A stretch of 64,000 nucleotides of DNA from Thermodesulfovibrio thiophilus DSM 17215 (GCF_000423865.1 NZ_AUIU01000011.1:62001-126000); one strand, 5' to 3'; shown: positions 47,374 through 60,260, counted from the stretch's first letter. Program-made: numbers and translations. Notes: generated by a model not told the origin, from the letters alone.

Positions 47374-47398
47374 GTCAAGCAAATAGCTTGACTTTTTT
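47374..47398 (+). terminator. Intrinsic terminator after the acyl-CoA ligase gene
   Basis: GTCAAGC and GCTTGAC form a 7-bp stem (extendable to about 9 with a G-U pair) around a 5-nt loop AAATA, followed by six T. It ends 32 nt before the next start codon, separating the two plus-strand transcription units. Confidence 0.8.
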
Positions 47399-47430
47399 AA
47401 ACGTCTGTTTTTTAATAGATAGCGATTGAC

Positions 47431-48684
47431 ATGTTCGACTGGAATTGGGAAATAGAAGATAAGCTCGTAAGCGATTTAAATGAATGGAGAAAAAAGTTTT
47501 CTCTTATTCATGAATTTATTGTCAGTCCTGATGGAGAAAAAATATCAGCACCCGTTGAGCTTGAAGATAAAAAGGTTACTGTTTGCATAAATGGTAAAAC
47601 ATGGCAGGATACATTTGAAAGGGTTTGTTTTATGAGATTTCTTCCTGACAGTAGAATTGTCTGTCTTATCCTTAAAAATTATGAATGGACTCTTTCTGTT
47701 GAAGAAACAGTTCTTGAAGAAACCTTTGATTACGCATGGAATCTTCAATTCAGTGATGATGGACATACGATTGCTTTTAATATAAAAAAGGGTGATTTAT
47801 ATGGAGTCTGCGTAAACGGAAAAATATGGGAAAATCTATTTTTTGATGCAAGAGATTTATTCATATCTCCAGATGGTAACAGAACAGCCTGCTATGTAAG
47901 AACAAAGAATCCTCCACTTCTTGATATTTTCAGTTTTAAAGAAGGAGTATGGACAGCAGGTATTGATGGACAGGCGTGGGATAAAAACTTTCTTTCTGTT
48001 TTTGGATTAACTTTTAACCGGGCCAGCAATAAAGTTGCTGCTTCAGTAAGACTTGATCAGCAGGATTTTACTGTTTCAGTGGATGGCAATCTTTGGGATG
48101 AGATATTTTCTTATGTATGGGAACCTATATTTATCAATAAATCAGATGTTATGGTACCTGTTAAATTGTCAAAAGGATGGACAATGGCTTTAAATGGAAA
48201 ACCAATCTGGAATAAATATTTTGTACAGCTCTGGAATCAAAGAATAAGTCCTGATGGAAAGAAGGTTGCAGCAGTGGCTGCTCCGGAATTTGGACGATGG
48301 AGTATAGTTGTTGATGGAATAATCTGGAGACAAACATTCTCTCAGGCAGTCCTGCCTCCGGTGTTTAGCCCTGACGGGGCAAAAGTTGCAGCATTGGTGA
48401 GAGAGAACAATAAATGGACTGTAGCTGTTGATGGTAAGCCATGGCAGGAATGGTTTGATAGAGTATGGATGCCTCAATTCAGTCCTCAGGGGAATCACAT
48501 TGCAGTAAAAGCAGAAAAAGAAGGTAAATTTTTTATTGTCCTTGATGGTAGAGCAGGGAAAGAAATTTTTGATATGTTATGGGACCCTGTTTTTAGCCCT
48601 GATGGAGAGAAGATTTTAATAAGGGCAGTAAGCAATGGTAAATACATTAGAAAAGTTTGCACTGCTGGAGAAATTTTAGGATAA
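47431..48684 (+). CDS. Tryptophan-rich beta-propeller protein, TmcD-like
   Basis: Soluble 417-aa protein without a signal peptide, so probably cytoplasmic. It consists of about nine repeats of 38-45 residues of the form V-x-V-[DN]-G-K-x-W-x-x-x-F-x-x-V-W-x-P-x-F-S-P-D-G-x-K-V-A (for example 320-345 and 370-395), which fold as WD40/PD40-like blades. It contains 21 tryptophans by my count. In Desulfovibrio the Tmc redox complex has a Trp-rich subunit, TmcD, of this kind. It is translationally coupled (TAATG) to the cytochrome b-like subunit, which supports a role in the complex. The exact function of TmcD is not established. No ribosome site is seen before the ATG. Confidence 0.75.
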   Translation: MFDWNWEIEDKLVSDLNEWRKKFSLIHEFIVSPDGEKISAPVELEDKKVTVCINGKTWQDTFERVCFMRFLPDSRIVCLILKNYEWTLSVEETVLEETFDYAWNLQFSDDGHTIAFNIKKGDLYGVCVNGKIWENLFFDARDLFISPDGNRTACYVRTKNPPLLDIFSFKEGVWTAGIDGQAWDKNFLSVFGLTFNRASNKVAASVRLDQQDFTVSVDGNLWDEIFSYVWEPIFINKSDVMVPVKLSKGWTMALNGKPIWNKYFVQLWNQRISPDGKKVAAVAAPEFGRWSIVVDGIIWRQTFSQAVLPPVFSPDGAKVAALVRENNKWTVAVDGKPWQEWFDRVWMPQFSPQGNHIAVKAEKEGKFFIVLDGRAGKEIFDMLWDPVFSPDGEKILIRAVSNGKYIRKVCTAGEILG

Positions 48685-49361
48685 TGGAACAGTTTTTAAA
48701 AGACCCTTCAATTTATACCCTTGCAAGAGGACCACTTGTGTGGCTTGCATTTATTGTGTTTTTTACTGGAATGCTTTACAAAATCACATCCATGTTAAAA
48801 ATGGCAAAGAGTGAAAGAGTTATATATCCATATCTAAGTTTGAAGTATACTCTTCGTTCACTAATTCACTGGCTTACTCCATATGGAAGTATAAGCATGA
48901 GAAAACATCCGTGGTTTACATCCATAACTTTTATTTTTCATATATGTGCCATTGTCACACCCATATTTTTAGCAGGACATATTGAACTCTGGCATGAATC
49001 ATGGGGAGTAAGCTGGTGCGAATTGCCTGTTTCAGTTGCGGATTCAATGACCATGGTGGTAATTAGCTGTATAATTATTCTTATAGTTCGTAGAATATTC
49101 CAGTCAGATGTTAGATTTTTAAGTTCTTCTGGAGATTACATTGCTCTTACAGTTGTTTTTATGACTTTTCTAACAGGATTTCTTGCCCATAATGAATTAT
49201 TGCTTGAGTCTAGAGTTATGCTCACAATCCATTTTATCACAGGTGAAATTATGCTTATGTCCATTCCTTTTACAAGGCTGAGCCATATGTTTTTCTTCTG
49301 GCTTACAAGAGCTCATACAGGAAGTGAATTTGGTGCAGTAAGACATTCAAAGGACTATTGA
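48684..49361 (+). CDS. hmcE: Cytochrome b-type membrane subunit, HmcE/TmcC-like
   Basis: NarI/DsrM-like di-haem membrane subunit, 225 aa, close to the 226 aa I recall for Desulfovibrio HmcE. Five membrane helices are visible, with histidines placed for haem b or quinone chemistry (FIFHICAIV, LAGHIELWHE, LTIHFITGE, RLSHMFFFW). I start at the ATG at 48684, which overlaps the propeller stop; an ATG at 48657 lies inside the upstream gene and adds a poor N-terminus. It would exchange electrons with menaquinone and pass them to the CCG subunit encoded next. The symbol follows gene context. Confidence 0.85.
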   Translation: MEQFLKDPSIYTLARGPLVWLAFIVFFTGMLYKITSMLKMAKSERVIYPYLSLKYTLRSLIHWLTPYGSISMRKHPWFTSITFIFHICAIVTPIFLAGHIELWHESWGVSWCELPVSVADSMTMVVISCIIILIVRRIFQSDVRFLSSSGDYIALTVVFMTFLTGFLAHNELLLESRVMLTIHFITGEIMLMSIPFTRLSHMFFFWLTRAHTGSEFGAVRHSKDY

Positions 49362-49369
49362 GGTGAAAT

Positions 49370-50698
49370 ATGGCAACATTTGAAAGAAAATCTGTTACAG
49401 ATATAGGGATTGACGAAACACTTAAACATGTCGATGAAGTAAAAATAAAAAAAGCAATTGACTGGGTTTTAAAAGCTGAAGCGTCAGCACGTCTTAAGAC
49501 ATTTGTTCAGACATGTGTCAGATGCGGAATGTGCTCAGATTCATGTCATCACTACATTAGCCATGATAATGATCCAACTTATGCTCCTGCTGCAAAAGTG
49601 AAGCAAACAGTATGGGATATGCTGGATAAGGATGGAAATGTAAGTAAAGAAGATATTAAAAAGTATGCAAGAATTGCTTTTACAGAGTGTAACTTATGCC
49701 GAAGATGCGTTCAGTTTTGTCCATTTGGAATAGATATTGCTTATCTAATCTCTCTTGTAAGGAGAATATGCTGTCTTATAGGGACTGTACCCCAGTATAT
49801 TCAGGATCAGGCTTTAAGCCATATGCAGACAACGAATATGTTATGGTTCAGACAGGATGAATGGCTTGATACAGTTCAATGGCTTGAGGATGAACTAAGA
49901 GCTGAAATTAAAAATGCAAGAATTCCACTTGGTAAAAAAGACGCTGATGTTTTATATCTCGCTCATGGACTTGAAGCGAAATACATGACAGGACTTCTGA
50001 CAAATATGGCAAAAATAATGAATGTTGCTAAAATTGACTGGACAATGCCTGATACAGATGGATGGGACTACACAAACAAGGCATTCTACGCGCAGGACCA
50101 TGAAACAATGAGTATGGTTGTACGAAGACATTATGAAAATGCTTTTAATCTGGGAGTAAAAAGAATTGTAATGGGTGAATGCGGTCATGCTTTCAGAACC
50201 GGCATTTATGAAGGTGTGAGATTTTTAGGATGGAAAGAATCACCAATTCCATATATTCATGGAGTTCAGTTTTTTTATGAACTTTTCATGGAAGGCAGGA
50301 TAAAAATAGCAAAAAAAATTGAAGAACCTGTAACTGTTCAAGATCCCTGCAATATAGTTAGATACAGGGGAATGGGAGATATGATCAGATATATAATCAG
50401 ACAGACCTGCGAGAACTTTATTGACATTAATCCGGGATATGAATACAACTACTGCTGTTCTGCAGGTGGAGGTATGGTTGATGCTGGACCACCATGGAAA
50501 ATGGCAAGAATTGAAGGAGGCAAGGTTAAAGCAGACCAGATAAGGGATACAGGAGCAAAGATTGTTATAGCTCCATGTCATACATGTCATAAAGGTATTG
50601 AGGATCTGAATGATTACTACAAACTCGGCGTGCATGTTAAGTTTTTAACTGATGTAATTGCAGAAACAATGGAGATACCTGAAGAGCTTAGAGCATGA
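49370..50698 (+). CDS. hmcF: CCG-domain iron-sulfur subunit, HmcF/TmcB/DsrK-like
   Basis: Cytoplasmic catalytic-type subunit related to HdrD, DsrK, TmcB and HmcF; 442 aa. Two [4Fe-4S] sites are formed by C49/C52/C55/C59 and C107/C110/C113/C117. Two cysteine-rich CCG regions follow: one around GECGHAFRTG, the other spanning DPCNIVRYRG, YNYCCSAGGG and APCHTCHKG, which could hold a non-cubane cluster for disulfide-type chemistry. GAGGTG lies before the ATG, 8 nt after the cytochrome b gene. The stop overlaps the start of the 16-haem cytochrome gene. The physiological partner is unknown. Confidence 0.88.
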   Translation: MATFERKSVTDIGIDETLKHVDEVKIKKAIDWVLKAEASARLKTFVQTCVRCGMCSDSCHHYISHDNDPTYAPAAKVKQTVWDMLDKDGNVSKEDIKKYARIAFTECNLCRRCVQFCPFGIDIAYLISLVRRICCLIGTVPQYIQDQALSHMQTTNMLWFRQDEWLDTVQWLEDELRAEIKNARIPLGKKDADVLYLAHGLEAKYMTGLLTNMAKIMNVAKIDWTMPDTDGWDYTNKAFYAQDHETMSMVVRRHYENAFNLGVKRIVMGECGHAFRTGIYEGVRFLGWKESPIPYIHGVQFFYELFMEGRIKIAKKIEEPVTVQDPCNIVRYRGMGDMIRYIIRQTCENFIDINPGYEYNYCCSAGGGMVDAGPPWKMARIEGGKVKADQIRDTGAKIVIAPCHTCHKGIEDLNDYYKLGVHVKFLTDVIAETMEIPEELRA

Positions 50699-52275
50699 AA
50701 CGTTCAATTTTCATAATAATTGTATTTGTCCTATCTGGCTTAATTCTGGTTCAGGCAAGAAACATATATTCTGTTAAAGAAAAACCTCAAACCATCAAGA
50801 GTCCGGCAAATAAAATCAGCATTGCCCATAAGGAAGTATTTGGTAGTCTTGAGTATGGCAGAGTTATTTTTGAACATCAAAAACATATAGATTCATTAAG
50901 TAAAGTCCTTAAAAAATCTGACAGTTCCATATGTAGTGAATGCCATTCTCAGAATAAATATGGCGATTTTATCTTTGATTTTCCAAAAGATGTGGACAGG
51001 AAAAATCCTGAATCACTCAAAAATGCCTATCATAAAGAGTGTTTAAAATGTCATCAAAAATTAAACATTCAAAAACAGAAATCTGGGCCTACAATCCTTT
51101 CCTGCAGAGACTGTCATAAAAAAGATTATGAAAAAACAGAAATCAAGTATTCTGTATTTGAGTTTGATTTTGCACTGCATGATAAACATGTAAAAAAACA
51201 TAACAAAGACTGTAGCCTCTGTCATCATATTTATGATGTTGAGGAGAAAAACAAGGAACTCGCTCTTTTCTATGAAAAGGGAACTGAACAGTCATGCCAT
51301 TACTGTCATGATTTAAATCAGAAGAGAGGTCCTGAACTATCGAAAATAGTAAAAATAGCAAAGGAACGAGATTTAAACATGGAAAGAGCATGCCATACTC
51401 TTTGCTTAAACTGTCATCTGTCCAATAAAGAGCAGGGAAAACAAGCAGGACCTGTGGTTTGCTCAAAATGTCACACAGAGAAGTATAAAACAGTAGAAGA
51501 TCTTAAAGATATACCAAGACCGGAAAGAGAGCAACCACAGAAAGCTTTTATAAATATTGAAGATGCAAAGATGAAAGGTGTTGCTTTTGACCATTCTTTT
51601 CATGAAAAAAACAATAAAACATGCAGAGAATGCCATCATGAAACACTTAGAGCATGTAAAGATTGTCACACAGTTAAAGGTGATGAAAAAGGTGGTTTTG
51701 TTAATCTTCTGACTGCCTACCATTCCCTGAATTCTAAGAATAGCTGTCAGGGATGTCATAGAACTGCAATGAATAAAAATGATTGTTATGGTTGCCATTA
51801 TTTTATCAGTCCTGTTACAACAGAGATAGCAAATAAAGAAGTCTGTAAACGCTGTCACACAGGTAAAAAGGAAATAGAGAAAGTGTCTTTATTAACTATT
51901 CCATCTGAGAGAGTGAAAAAAGCGGTGGTAATAAAACATATTGAAAAAGAATTTGAAGCAACCAAAATGCCTCATTACAAAATGATTCAAAAGCTTACTG
52001 ATGTATCGAATCAGAGCAAACTCGCTACTTATTTTCATAGAGATATCACGACAATATGCAGAGGCTGTCATCATAAAAGCAAGCAGGATGCTGAAGCAAA
52101 AAAAGACAATCCTCCAATTTGTGTAAGCTGTCACAGTGTTTCATTTGACTCAAACGCACTTGGAAGACCACGACTTGAATCAGCATATCATACGATGTGT
52201 ATTAAATGTCATGAAAATATGAAACTTGAGAAACCCAAAAAATGTACTGAGTGTCATGAAAGAAAGAAAAATTAA
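50695..52275 (+). CDS. hmcA: 16-haem cytochrome c, HmcA-like
   Basis: Exported multihaem cytochrome, 526 aa, with an N-terminal signal/anchor (about 1-21). I count sixteen CxxCH haem motifs, from CSECH near residue 80 to CTECH near 519, the number known for Desulfovibrio HmcA (about 545 aa). Many extra His provide bis-His axial ligands. It would accept electrons from periplasmic hydrogenases or c3-type cytochromes and pass them to the membrane part of the complex. The start overlaps the hmcF-like stop. The 116-nt gap after it is the only sizeable gap in the operon. Haem number is read directly; the partners are inferred. Confidence 0.92.
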   Translation: MKRSIFIIIVFVLSGLILVQARNIYSVKEKPQTIKSPANKISIAHKEVFGSLEYGRVIFEHQKHIDSLSKVLKKSDSSICSECHSQNKYGDFIFDFPKDVDRKNPESLKNAYHKECLKCHQKLNIQKQKSGPTILSCRDCHKKDYEKTEIKYSVFEFDFALHDKHVKKHNKDCSLCHHIYDVEEKNKELALFYEKGTEQSCHYCHDLNQKRGPELSKIVKIAKERDLNMERACHTLCLNCHLSNKEQGKQAGPVVCSKCHTEKYKTVEDLKDIPRPEREQPQKAFINIEDAKMKGVAFDHSFHEKNNKTCRECHHETLRACKDCHTVKGDEKGGFVNLLTAYHSLNSKNSCQGCHRTAMNKNDCYGCHYFISPVTTEIANKEVCKRCHTGKKEIEKVSLLTIPSERVKKAVVIKHIEKEFEATKMPHYKMIQKLTDVSNQSKLATYFHRDITTICRGCHHKSKQDAEAKKDNPPICVSCHSVSFDSNALGRPRLESAYHTMCIKCHENMKLEKPKKCTECHERKKN

Positions 52276-52391
52276 ATCGTTAGGATACTGGTTTTTTCCC
52301 TGTGCTGGCACAACATTCATATTCTTTTCAGAAGCTAGAAATTGTGTTGTTTTGACATACAGTGTTTCAAAATCAATTGAAGAGGTTTAAA

Positions 52392-52508
52392 ATGTATATA
52401 TTTGAACAACTTTTTTCTAATCATGGATATGAATATGTGATTGCTGCGTTATCAGTCTTCGCTTTTATAGTGATTTTTTCAATGCTTGGAGAGAAGAAAA
52501 AATATTAG
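52392..52508 (+). CDS. hmcD: Small membrane protein, HmcD-like, 38 aa
   Basis: A 38-residue protein with one membrane helix (about 15-32, YVIAALSVFAFIVIFSML) and a basic tail EKKKY. AGAGG lies 5 nt upstream of the ATG, and the next gene starts 9 nt after its stop. Desulfovibrio Hmc also has a very small single-helix subunit, HmcD, so position, size and topology agree. Sequence identity alone would be too short to judge. Its role is unknown; it is probably a structural helix in the complex. Confidence 0.75.
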   Translation: MYIFEQLFSNHGYEYVIAALSVFAFIVIFSMLGEKKKY

Positions 52509-52517
52509 AGGTTGTAA

Positions 52518-53489
52518 ATGAATAGAAGAGAGTTTTTTAAAAGAAGTTTAACAATTGCTGGCAGTCTATTGATAGCCAGAAATTCAAATGCTTCTGATCA
52601 ACCTTTATCTGTTTATTCAACTCAAAATAAGGCAAATAAAAAAAACTGGGAAAAATTTGAAGAGCTAAAGAAAACAAATTCACAAATTGATGAGTCATAT
52701 GCAGTACTTGTTGACATTACAAAGTGTATTGGTTGTAGACGCTGTGAGTGGGCATGTAATGAATGGAATAAAAATCCAAACAGGCCAGTTAAAGAGTTTG
52801 AAGCATCAAAGGATGAAAAACCATCGGTTTTTGACAGAGTTCGCAGAACTCATGCAGGTGAGTTTACTGTTGTAAACAGATTTCATAGTAAAAACAAGCC
52901 TGTTTATGTAAAAAAACAGTGTATGCATTGTGCTGAAGCAGCGTGCTTGAATGCATGTTTTGTGGATGCTTTTAAGAAAACTCCGCAGGGTGCGGTTCTT
53001 TATAATCCTTCTTTATGTGTTGGATGTCGTTACTGCATGATTGCCTGTCCTTTTGACATTCCTGCCTATGAATACTATAATGCACTCACACCCCAGATAA
53101 CAAAGTGCACAATGTGCTTTGACAGAGTCACAGATGGGAAAGTACCTGCGTGTGTGGAATCATGTACTTCAGATGCTTTAATTTTTGGAAAAAGGAGTGA
53201 AATGCTCAAACTTGCTTATAACACAATAAATAAAAATCCGGAGAGATATATCAACCATGTATATGGAGAGCATGAAGCAGGAGGAACTAATTGGCTTTAT
53301 ATTTCGCAGATTCCGTTTGAGAAGCTCGGATTTCCAGAACTTGATAAAACCCCGATACCTGCTCACAGTAAAAGTTTTCTTTTCACAGTTAAAGTACTTG
53401 AAGTGGTTGCTGCTGCACCTCTTGTATGGGGCGCATACTATATGATTTCAAAAAATAGAAGCAAAAAAGAAGGCAAGAAAGATGAGTAA
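52518..53489 (+). CDS. hmcB: Four-cluster ferredoxin-like subunit, HmcB-like
   Basis: Periplasmic-facing iron-sulfur subunit of the DmsB/NrfC family; 323 aa. A twin-arginine signal (NRREFFKRSLTIAGS) at the N-terminus implies export in folded form. Cysteine groups for four [4Fe-4S] clusters are seen: C70/C73/C76/C80, then CMHCAEAACLNAC, CVGCRYCMIAC and CTMCFDRVTDGKVPACVESC. A C-terminal membrane helix (about 291-312) anchors it, as in HmcB. It overlaps the NrfD-like gene by 8 nt, the usual pairing. It should wire the 16-haem cytochrome to the NrfD-like subunit. Confidence 0.9.
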   Translation: MNRREFFKRSLTIAGSLLIARNSNASDQPLSVYSTQNKANKKNWEKFEELKKTNSQIDESYAVLVDITKCIGCRRCEWACNEWNKNPNRPVKEFEASKDEKPSVFDRVRRTHAGEFTVVNRFHSKNKPVYVKKQCMHCAEAACLNACFVDAFKKTPQGAVLYNPSLCVGCRYCMIACPFDIPAYEYYNALTPQITKCTMCFDRVTDGKVPACVESCTSDALIFGKRSEMLKLAYNTINKNPERYINHVYGEHEAGGTNWLYISQIPFEKLGFPELDKTPIPAHSKSFLFTVKVLEVVAAAPLVWGAYYMISKNRSKKEGKKDE

Positions 53490-54657
53490 CTGGTTTAATG
53501 AAAAAATCCTTCTTGGTATGAATTGTAGAGAATATATTTCAAAGCATGCCACTTTATTGAATTTTATGGCTTTGATTATCCTGTGTTTTTCCTTTTATGC
53601 AATGGCTTACAGGTTAATTTACGGACTTGGACCAGCAACAAATCTCTCAGATACCTATCCGTGGGGGTTCTGGATAAGCTTTGATATACTGGCGGGTATA
53701 GCTCTTGCAGCACCAGGACTCACAGTAGGAACAGTGGTCTATCTATTTGGGGCAAAGGATTATAAACACTTTGCCCGTCCTGCTATTCTTTCAAGTCTTC
53801 TTGGATATATATTTGCTGTTTTTGCGCTTATGTTTGACCTTGGTAGGTATTATAGAGTTTTTTATGTTATTGGATGGTCATGGGGATTAAACTCTATACT
53901 ATTTTTAATTGCTTGGCATTTCTTTTTATATATCATTATCTGTCTTATTGAATGGTTTCCGGCATTTTTTGAATGGCTTGGGATTGAAAAGGCAAAAAAT
54001 TTCTTTTCAAAACTTGGTATCTGGGCAACTGTTTTTGGTGTAATAATCGCAGGTGGACATCAGTCAGCTCTCGGAGGATTATTCCTTGTAGCTCCAACAA
54101 AAATTCATCCTCTCTGGTATTCAGCTTTGTTACCGCTTTTTTTTCTCGTCTCAGCGCTTTTTGCCGGAATTTCAATGGTAATAATTGAAAGTACAATCTC
54201 TCATAAAGTTTTCAGGGATCAATTGAAGACTTTTGATCGGGCAGATTTTGATAATAAAACATTGGGACTTGCAAAAGCTCTGGTTATTATACTTTTTGTT
54301 TATCTGATTTTAAAAGTTCTTGATCTTACACATTATAATAACTGGCATTATTTGAAAAGTGAGTATGGATACTGGTATCTATTGGAAGTTGTTGGCTTTG
54401 TTTTAGCTCCGGCTTTGGTTTTAATAAATTCAGTAAAAAATAAAAAGGTAAAACTTGTTCGGTTTACGACATTCTGGGTTGTTACTGGAGTAATTCTTAA
54501 TCGTTTCAATGTAAGTCTTATTGCTTACAACTGGTATATTCCATTGCAAGAGAAATACTATCCAACATGGATGGAAATTGCTTTGTCTCTTGGTGTTGTA
54601 ACATTGATAGTATTGTTTTACAGATTTATTGTAAGAAGAATGTCTATTCTCTCTTAG
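53482..54657 (+). CDS. hmcC: NrfD/PsrC-like integral membrane subunit, HmcC-like
   Basis: Quinone-interacting membrane protein without haem; 391 aa and about ten hydrophobic helices. Family features include GPATNLSDTYPWGFWISFD near residues 50-68 and GGHQSALGG in the middle, which line the quinone site in PsrC-type subunits. It pairs with the ferredoxin-like subunit upstream (8-nt overlap) and is the last gene of the operon. It should exchange electrons with menaquinone. No terminator was identified in the 88-nt gap to the convergent ispDF gene. Confidence 0.9.
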   Translation: MSNWFNEKILLGMNCREYISKHATLLNFMALIILCFSFYAMAYRLIYGLGPATNLSDTYPWGFWISFDILAGIALAAPGLTVGTVVYLFGAKDYKHFARPAILSSLLGYIFAVFALMFDLGRYYRVFYVIGWSWGLNSILFLIAWHFFLYIIICLIEWFPAFFEWLGIEKAKNFFSKLGIWATVFGVIIAGGHQSALGGLFLVAPTKIHPLWYSALLPLFFLVSALFAGISMVIIESTISHKVFRDQLKTFDRADFDNKTLGLAKALVIILFVYLILKVLDLTHYNNWHYLKSEYGYWYLLEVVGFVLAPALVLINSVKNKKVKLVRFTTFWVVTGVILNRFNVSLIAYNWYIPLQEKYYPTWMEIALSLGVVTLIVLFYRFIVRRMSILS

Positions 54658-58385: not shown

Positions 58386-60260
58386 TTATCCTCTTTTTAC
58401 CAGTTTCCTGAACTCTCCAACACGAAGAGTTATTTTCTGTGAATCAAGATGTTCAAGATATGCAATTGCATACTTTCTTGTTGTATTAAGCAGTGTTCTA
58501 AACTCAGAAACTGCCATCACATCTTTTTTGGTAAAAAATTCTTTAAGAAGTTCTATCATTTTTGTATAACTTTCAGCGGTAAGATATAGTGAGTCATTTA
58601 TTCGAATTATTTTACCTGATTTAGCAATTAATTTTAATATATCACTTAGTTTTGATTCAGCAATTGAGAGATTACGAGCAAGTTCATCCTTCAGAGGTGG
58701 TTGAAATTCATTGTTTTTAAGGTCTTTAATTATTTTATTTTCTAATTTTTCATCAACTTTTTCTTTTGTTGCTGTTTTTAACTTTACAAGGTTACCTTCA
58801 ACTGAAATCTCTTCAACATGATTTAACAGCATTAAAAGTTCAGGAGACCTTCCCAGAGAAAGTCTGGCTTTTAGCTCTTCTTTAGGCAAACCTTCCTTAA
58901 GTGGATTATTTTCATGAAATTGTTTGAGCAGGTTAGAAAGAGAGATTCTGAAATCATTAAAAATATCCATATGAAAAAGATGATTTTCAGCTTTTATAAT
59001 TTTTTTCTTTTCTATAAGCTGTTGGACAGCAGTCTTTATAAACTTTATGTCAGTATTTATCCAGCCTTCAAGTTCAGAGATTGATATGCCTTTAAATCCT
59101 TTTCTTTTAATTTTAATCTCTATTCTGTCTGATAGTTCTCCACTGTAGAGAATATCAAGATGTGCGTGGTCTAATTCCCTATTTTTTTTAGGCGGATCAG
59201 GATCAAGAATAATGCCTCCACCAAGAGTTTCAAGTGGAGAAAATCTTCTGATAACAAATCTGTCTCCTGCCATTGCAACTACAGGTTCATTCAATTTAAT
59301 ATGAGCAAAAGCATCTTCATCAGGAAGAATTTCAGTTTTGCCAAAAAGTTTTATTTTCCCTGTAGTTTCAGATGTTGTAAGGTAGAAATGAATAGGCGAA
59401 CTATTTCTTAAGGGTTTAACATCTTTTAATAGTTTTATTTTTGCTTCTATCATATATGTTGGTTTGAGTTTGCCTGGAATTGTAACAATATCTCCTCGTC
59501 TTAAATCTTCTTTCGAAACTCCTTGAAGATTTATCCCAACCCTTTGTCCTGCAACAACTTCTTTGAGTTGTTGTCCATGACTCTGCAGCCCTCTTATCCT
59601 TGAGCTAATACGTGTTGGAAGAATTTCAACAGATGAGTCAACTGAAATTTTTCCAGAAAGGACTGTTCCTGTCACAACTGTTCCGAATCCTTTAAGAGTA
59701 AAAACTCTGTCAACAGGCATTCTGAATATACCACCTGTTGATTTTTCTTCAACTTTTAAAGCAAGTTCTCTAATTTTTTCTTTAAGAACGTTTATATTGT
59801 AGCCTGTTCTGGCTGAAACAGGGATTATTTCAGCATTTTCCAGGAATGTTCCTTTAACTGAATCTGTTATATCTTCTTTTGCAAGTTCTAATGTTTCTTC
59901 ATCAACAAGGTCAGCTTTGTTTAAAGCAATCAATCCGGACTTTATCTTCAGCAAATCACATATTGCAAGATGTTCCTTTGTCTGAGGCATAACTCCTTCA
60001 TCAGCTGCAACAACAAGCATGACCATATCAATTCCACCAACTCCTGCAAGCATGTTTTTAATAAGTCTTTCATGTCCTGGAACATCAACAATTCCAACAA
60101 CTAAATCAGGATAAGCGATACTGGCAAAGCCAAGGTCAATTGTGATTCCCCTTTCCTTTTCTTCTTTCAATCTGTCTGGATCATCTCCTGTAAGAGCTTT
60201 TACAACAGAACTTTTACCATGGTCAATATGACCTGCTGTGCCCAGAATGACTTTTTTCAT
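58386..60260 (-). CDS. selB: Selenocysteine-specific elongation factor SelB
   Basis: Delivers Sec-tRNA to UGA codons followed by a SECIS hairpin. It has 624 aa, the normal length. GTPase motifs are GHIDHGKS at 9-16, DVPGH, NKAD and SAR. Domains II and III follow. The C-terminal winged-helix repeats (about 380-624) bind SECIS RNA, ending [20 protein letters not shown]. It overlaps hisH by 4 nt. selA, selC and selD are not in this window. It implies that the organism makes selenoproteins, perhaps formate dehydrogenase or hydrogenase, encoded elsewhere. Confidence 0.95.

Follow-up and report, generated by a model that had tools for sequence, protein, structure and literature searches.

Which redox complex, or complexes, does a seven-gene operon of the thermophilic sulfate reducer Thermodesulfovibrio thiophilus DSM 17215 encode, when its genes resemble parts of both the Tmc and the Hmc complexes of Desulfovibrio? 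The usual view sets Tmc and Hmc side by side, with Tmc a stripped-down version of Hmc; in which direction each works, and with which cytoplasmic partner, is under discussion. The operon lies on the + strand at positions 47431-54657 of the stretch of DNA analysed here (64,000 nt, NZ_AUIU01000011.1:62001-126000; hereafter the window), on contig 9 of a 1.87-Mb genome (coded G000). A first-pass annotation had described it as a full Hmc set with a Tmc-type propeller at its head. We find instead that Tmc supplies three genes, in the order tmcD-tmcC-tmcB, and that a four-gene Hmc half, hmcA-hmcD-hmcB-hmcC, follows. We consider, with a probability of roughly 0.6, that the products would form one seven-subunit transmembrane electron-transfer complex of two modules, doing the work of both Tmc and Hmc.

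The subunits were named by use of curated NCBIfam profiles, each with its own bit-score cut-off. The propeller at the operon head is TmcD as had been proposed (47431-48684, 417 amino acids; NF045725, 484.8 bits, cut-off 440), a cytoplasmic protein with 21 tryptophans and neither signal peptide nor transmembrane (TM) segment; 13 tryptophans are invariant in an alignment of 29 members. Its AlphaFold2 model is all beta (pLDDT 94.4), and the Foldseek matches are propellers. About nine repeats, each of roughly 38-40 residues, can be recognised in TmcD, and of the 50 matches listed the Vps10p domain of sortilin had the highest TM-score normalised to query length (0.57), so the blade number may be unusual. 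A scaffold or docking role is our guess.

The second gene, previously called HmcE-like, encodes a NarI/HmcE-like membrane subunit with five TM segments (48684-49361, 225 amino acids), which passes the TmcC model NF045723 (273.2 bits, cut-off 240) and stays below the HmcE model NF045716 (181 bits, cut-off 275). Across the 17 relatives scanned, the TmcC model matched throughout and gave a better best E-value than the HmcE model did; His86, 99, 183 and 201 are invariant in these relatives, which would fit two b haems. The third gene, previously called HmcF-like, encodes a cytoplasmic subunit with two [4Fe-4S] clusters and a CCG domain (49370-50698, 442 amino acids). Its best-scoring model of all is TmcB (NF045724, 609.5 bits, cut-off 735), against 339.8 bits for HmcF (NF045711, cut-off 750) and 174.6 bits for DsrK (NF045796, cut-off 400), and two relatives from f10, our code for a second family within the order, score 774 and 788 on the TmcB model. 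The cluster cysteines are all invariant among relatives, and the nearest solved folds to the TmcB model (pLDDT 90.7) are the CCG proteins EtfD, LutA and HdrB (5odc_B). Because the profiles favour the Tmc models, these two subunits have been renamed TmcC and TmcB.

In the Hmc half, hmcA (50695-52275, 526 amino acids) encodes a periplasmic cytochrome that passes NF045713 (537 bits, cut-off 400) and finds D. vulgaris Hmc as its best PDB match (1gws, E 3e-73). The 16 haems claimed for it agree with exactly 16 CxxCH motifs counted in the window; nearly all full-length relatives read also have 16, and one has 18 (locus L115; L and G numbers are our codes for loci and genomes, respectively). HmcB (52518-53489, 323 amino acids) begins with a Tat-type (twin-arginine) sequence, MNRREFFKRS, contains four [4Fe-4S] motifs and has a TM segment at its C-terminus, and HmcC (53482-54657, 391 amino acids) is an NrfD-type integral membrane subunit with about ten TM segments (Pfam NrfD, 4.7e-16), which likely carries a menaquinone site. 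Their top-scoring models are those of HmcB (NF045715, 342 bits, cut-off 420) and HmcC (NF045714, 410 bits, cut-off 550), respectively. PDB sequence searches with TmcC and with HmcC found no relative. The HmcD-like peptide with a single TM segment (52392-52508, 38 amino acids) matched no model of the library; its sequence and its place are conserved in 24 operons from the two families. Thus the CCG subunit and the two possible quinone or haem-b membrane subunits proposed for this operon are all present.

When the proteins were compared with the hidden Markov models of the Hmc, Tmc, Qrc, Dsr and Nhc/Ohc families, only Tmc and Hmc models were passed. QrcD (NF041784, 77 bits, cut-off 570), QrcC (NF041782, 57 bits, cut-off 400) and the Ohc/Nhc nine-haem cytochrome (NF045784, 125.6 bits, cut-off 640) all fell short, and the operon, unlike Ohc/Nhc, contains a CCG gene. 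DsrMKJOP shares the architecture of CCG, NarI-like, cytochrome c, FeS and NrfD subunits; it differs in that the window protein scores far below the DsrK cut-off and that a separate canonical DsrK (743 bits, G000:C13) is encoded elsewhere in the genome. Since HmcE and HmcF remain below their own cut-offs while TmcC passes, we read the composition as TmcDCB plus HmcADBC.

The genes and coordinates given in the first-pass annotation were verified, as was an order permuted with respect to hmcABCDEF. Its statement that most genes overlap or lie within 10 nt holds for five joints and fails for the hmcA-hmcD gap (joints along the operon: -1, +8, -4, +116, +9 and -8 nt, minus being overlap). Directly before tmcD, on the + strand, stands a 35-nt block, CTTGACTTTTTT-N6-CTGTTTTTTAATAGATA (47387-47421), whose 3' end is 9 nt ahead of the tmcD start and which is recognisable in 13 of the 13 Thermodesulfovibrio loci read. 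The block occurs once in the window and in none of 100 shuffles; the genes 5' of it vary between loci, and it stays before tmcD. We take it to be a putative promoter because of its TTGACT...TTTAAT make-up. A terminator-like hairpin at 47374-47398 was given no weight because in all 13 loci the block includes the 3' arm of the hairpin, TTGACTTTTTT. The KAS and acyl-CoA ligase genes upstream are placed outside the unit because they were not found adjoining the operon in relatives. Separate regulation of the propeller gene is contradicted by the fact that the sole genus-conserved promoter-like block found precedes tmcD, together with the 1-nt tmcD/tmcC overlap, and these features support a transcription unit, predicted to be headed by tmcD, that covers both Tmc-type and Hmc-type subunits.

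Relatives were searched in 141 genomes of the order and 396 genomes of the phylum. The seven-gene order is kept in every Thermodesulfovibrio locus with an intact region and in the second family, whose genomes carry one or two operon copies each, so that the gene array lies far beyond chance. TmcD above or near its cut-off (at least 429 bits) was restricted, among the 396 phylum genomes, to the Thermodesulfovibrio family and f10. HmcA above its cut-off was confined to genomes with this Tmc module (25 of the 141 order genomes; Fisher p ~2e-27, from hand-entered counts and ignoring shared ancestry, the lineages being really two). HmcF exceeded its cut-off in none of the 396 phylum genomes, and TmcA (NF045722, cut-off 114 bits) in none of the 141 order genomes, in a search made without a positive control. 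The best TmcA-like match in the T. thiophilus genome (65.8 bits) is a soluble tetrahaem cytochrome c3 of 125-127 amino acids encoded on another contig. A plasmid search gave no close relative.

Some neighbouring genes were noted by eye. Beside the f10 operons L045, L103, L105, L108, L113 and L042, the open reading frames repeatedly include a MerR-like regulator whose N-terminus is nearly the same each time. Genes for [NiFe]-hydrogenase or its maturation protease lie near the operons of L107 (13579-18454), L041 (16670-17143) and L109 (1629-2084), as they do 3' of hmcC in L051, L053 and L054.

The proposal of a hybrid operon is strengthened by the re-assortment of the two halves in relatives. 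A six-gene form without hmcD, here called type II, is found in f10 (L042, L105, L108 and L109, and partially L115 and L140), and its HmcB and HmcC are about 40% identical to those of the window. Type II was defined from the Hmc side first, and the Tmc-side trees were then examined. It makes up one clade in each of the HmcC, HmcA and HmcB trees (100/100 in each) and is scattered in the TmcD and TmcB trees, where the approximately unbiased (AU) test rejects a single clade with log-likelihood losses of 181 (p 1e-59) and 521 (p 4e-21), respectively. Conversely, L109 and L114 are close relatives on the Tmc side, as are L108, L045 and L106, and for HmcA, HmcB and HmcC the grouping of each set as a clade is rejected (p <=4e-4). 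These trees, which took in no Desulfobacterota sequences, support a hybrid Tmc-Hmc composition and indicate that halves have been exchanged with the break at the tmcB|hmcA joint. A long-branch artefact was considered for type II and rejected; the HmcC branches are long, but HmcA, whose tree raised no long-branch warning, gives the same clade at 100/100. Chimerism of metagenome-assembled genomes was also rejected as the source of the mosaics: type II operons stand on single contigs (89 kb in G270, 70 kb in G045 and 17 kb in G342), and G045 holds both sub-types on one contig.

Further arrangements were found in relatives. In L102, two tandem tmcDCB sets are followed by one hmcADBC, and in L041 an extra tmcD-tmcB pair, its tmcB of the selenocysteine type, lies ahead of tmcDCB-hmcADBC. 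Units resembling the halves also stand alone: triads of a four-haem c3, HmcB and HmcC in other families of the order (L124-L130), and a two-gene pair of NarI-like (HmcE-like) and CCG (HmcF-like) genes in family f15 of the class (L141-L148). Since halves have been swapped as units, such complexes may well have been assembled from interchangeable modules, as this comparison suggests.

In at least 14 f10 copies of TmcB, the position of Cys271 in the GE-C-GH motif, which is cysteine in the window, is occupied by an in-frame UGA (L041, L042, L045, the second copy of L102, L104-L109, L112, L114, L115 and L139), and in L042 another UGA stands at the cysteine of CHxCH. Folding 3' of the UGA is stronger than at the cysteine copies (mean z -1.7 versus -0.2, by mononucleotide shuffles), with hairpins like selenocysteine insertion sequences (SECIS), and tRNA-Sec was detected at or above the gathering score in 17 of the 19 genomes tested. 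In the window itself, selB for the selenocysteine elongation factor (NCBIfam, 375.6 bits, cut-off 242) lies on the - strand at 58386-60260, 3.7 kb past the operon's 3' end. Selenoproteins on record include a UGH-type family, 'Fe-S oxidoreductase-like' (PMC13188914), so the UGA in TmcB places a known kind of selenoprotein and is not presented as a new one.

How would such a complex work? The first module would consist of the CCG iron-sulfur protein TmcB, the di-haem-b membrane subunit TmcC and the Trp-rich propeller TmcD, and the second of the 16-haem cytochrome HmcA, the Tat-exported four-cluster ferredoxin HmcB, the NrfD-type HmcC and the single-TM HmcD. Passages of a 2016 genome paper describe for Thermodesulfovibrio a soluble periplasmic [NiFe] hydrogenase and formate dehydrogenase, the hydrogenase without a membrane cytochrome b subunit of its own, and growth with H2 and formate given acetate (PMC5165239). 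Electrons from either enzyme might pass through soluble c3 to HmcA and leave by one or both of two exits: through HmcB/HmcC to menaquinone, or through the TmcC haems to the CCG cluster of TmcB, which would pass them to a partner of the disulfide type in the cytoplasm, the DsrC trisulfide being the likeliest. HmcA would stand in the place of TmcA, and TmcB and TmcC in those of HmcF and HmcE, so that one complex could cover the jobs that Desulfovibrio divides between Tmc and Hmc. More tentatively, HmcA might be a single node feeding menaquinone through HmcBC and also TmcBCD, acting as a CCG-type thiol/trisulfide reductase in the cytoplasm, which would define a distinct three-way redox class with docking modules swappable at the TmcB-HmcA joint and, in some lineages, selenocysteine versions of the CCG site.

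We favour a single complex because of the profiles, the overlapping same-strand genes, the single block at tmcD and the conservation shared despite changing upstream genes, and because HmcA occurs only with the Tmc module, neither HmcF nor TmcA was found above cut-off, and the genome has its own DsrK and c3 genes. Several points weigh against it. Its oneness is deduced from sequence; HmcB, HmcC and TmcB are below their curated cut-offs, though their own families score best; the absence of TmcA comes from a search with no match in any genome and thus not positively controlled; and in L047 (2530-8234; G009, a single-contig genome) the frames of tmcC, hmcA and hmcC are split, probably by sequencing errors. 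In addition, the re-assorting halves, the tandem sets of L102 and the additional pair of L041 would also fit two loosely coupled complexes.

Such a pair, encoded in one operon, would be a TmcA-less TmcBCD and an Ohc/Nhc-like quinone reductase HmcADBC, sharing a soluble cytochrome c3 pool. The break at tmcB|hmcA and the likeness of each half to the stand-alone units of the same class speak for this arrangement, as do the TmcA-less Tmc known in Seep-SRB1a/1g (PMC10553843) and Ohc, which is without a CCG subunit and has been proposed to feed quinone (PMC4287179). We nevertheless regard two complexes as unlikely, given that HmcA and the Tmc module strictly go together in the two families, the 4-nt overlap of tmcB and hmcA in the window and the failure to find any TmcA above cut-off that could serve a lone Tmc.

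Electrons in the single complex could also flow in reverse, from a cytoplasmic reductant through TmcB and HmcA to the periplasmic hydrogenase or formate dehydrogenase, releasing H2 or formate for redox balancing. For Hmc of Desulfovibrio, an outward direction has been proposed (PMC5109826), and in D. alaskensis growth on H2 improves when hmc is mutated (PMC4215793). In D. alaskensis, however, Tmc mutants are impaired on H2, Tmc has been proposed to carry electrons from c3 to DsrC, and Hmc is dispensable (PMC4215793); the cytoplasmic half here is of the Tmc type, the one required for H2 oxidation, which makes reverse flow doubtful to us. The annotation given for Thermodesulfovibrio sp. N1 (THER_1440-1444, in a passage of PMC5165239), by which this would be an ordinary Hmc complex with its genes reordered, agrees with the HmcA score and the top matches of HmcB and HmcC but is very improbable, being largely refuted by profiles that place TmcD, TmcC and all 17 TmcC relatives with Tmc and leave HmcE and HmcF below their cut-offs.

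Compared with Desulfovibrio TmcABCD (NF045722-NF045725), the operon of Thermodesulfovibrio has orthologues of TmcB, TmcC and TmcD, the latter two above cut-off, but lacks TmcA, reverses the order to D-C-B and continues into the Hmc half. With HmcABCDEF (NF045711-NF045716) it shares HmcA, HmcB- and HmcC-like proteins and the small HmcD-like helix, but TmcC and TmcB occupy the places of HmcE and HmcF, and the order is A-D-B-C. The N1 locus is orthologous over the stretch bounded by the CCG and NrfD genes, and Hmc was stated in the same source to be present in all sequenced Thermodesulfovibrio; the part from hmcA to hmcC and the CCG gene has therefore been known as 'Hmc' since 2016. The relevant passage covers the CCG, HmcA, FeS and NrfD genes and not tmcC or tmcD (PMC5165239), and the N1 contig breaks inside tmcB (L033 ends there). 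Desulfococcus multivorans has a tmc1 cluster with hmc genes downstream of tmcA1, but as two complexes, both complete, with TmcA and HmcEF (PMC5109826). Seep-SRB1a/1g likewise has TmcBCD without TmcA, but an attached HmcADBC half is not described there (PMC10553843). Our literature search found no paper on the composite order tmcDCB-hmcADBC or on exchange of halves.

The annotation of the Thermodesulfovibrio complex as simply Hmc is hereby corrected. A lineage that joins, in one unit, Tmc's cytoplasmic half to the half of Hmc that serves periplasm and quinone, and that has no separate TmcA or HmcEF above cut-off, provides a natural test of the work of each half. The block exchange of halves may further hint at the working interface, that of TmcB/TmcC against HmcA/HmcC.

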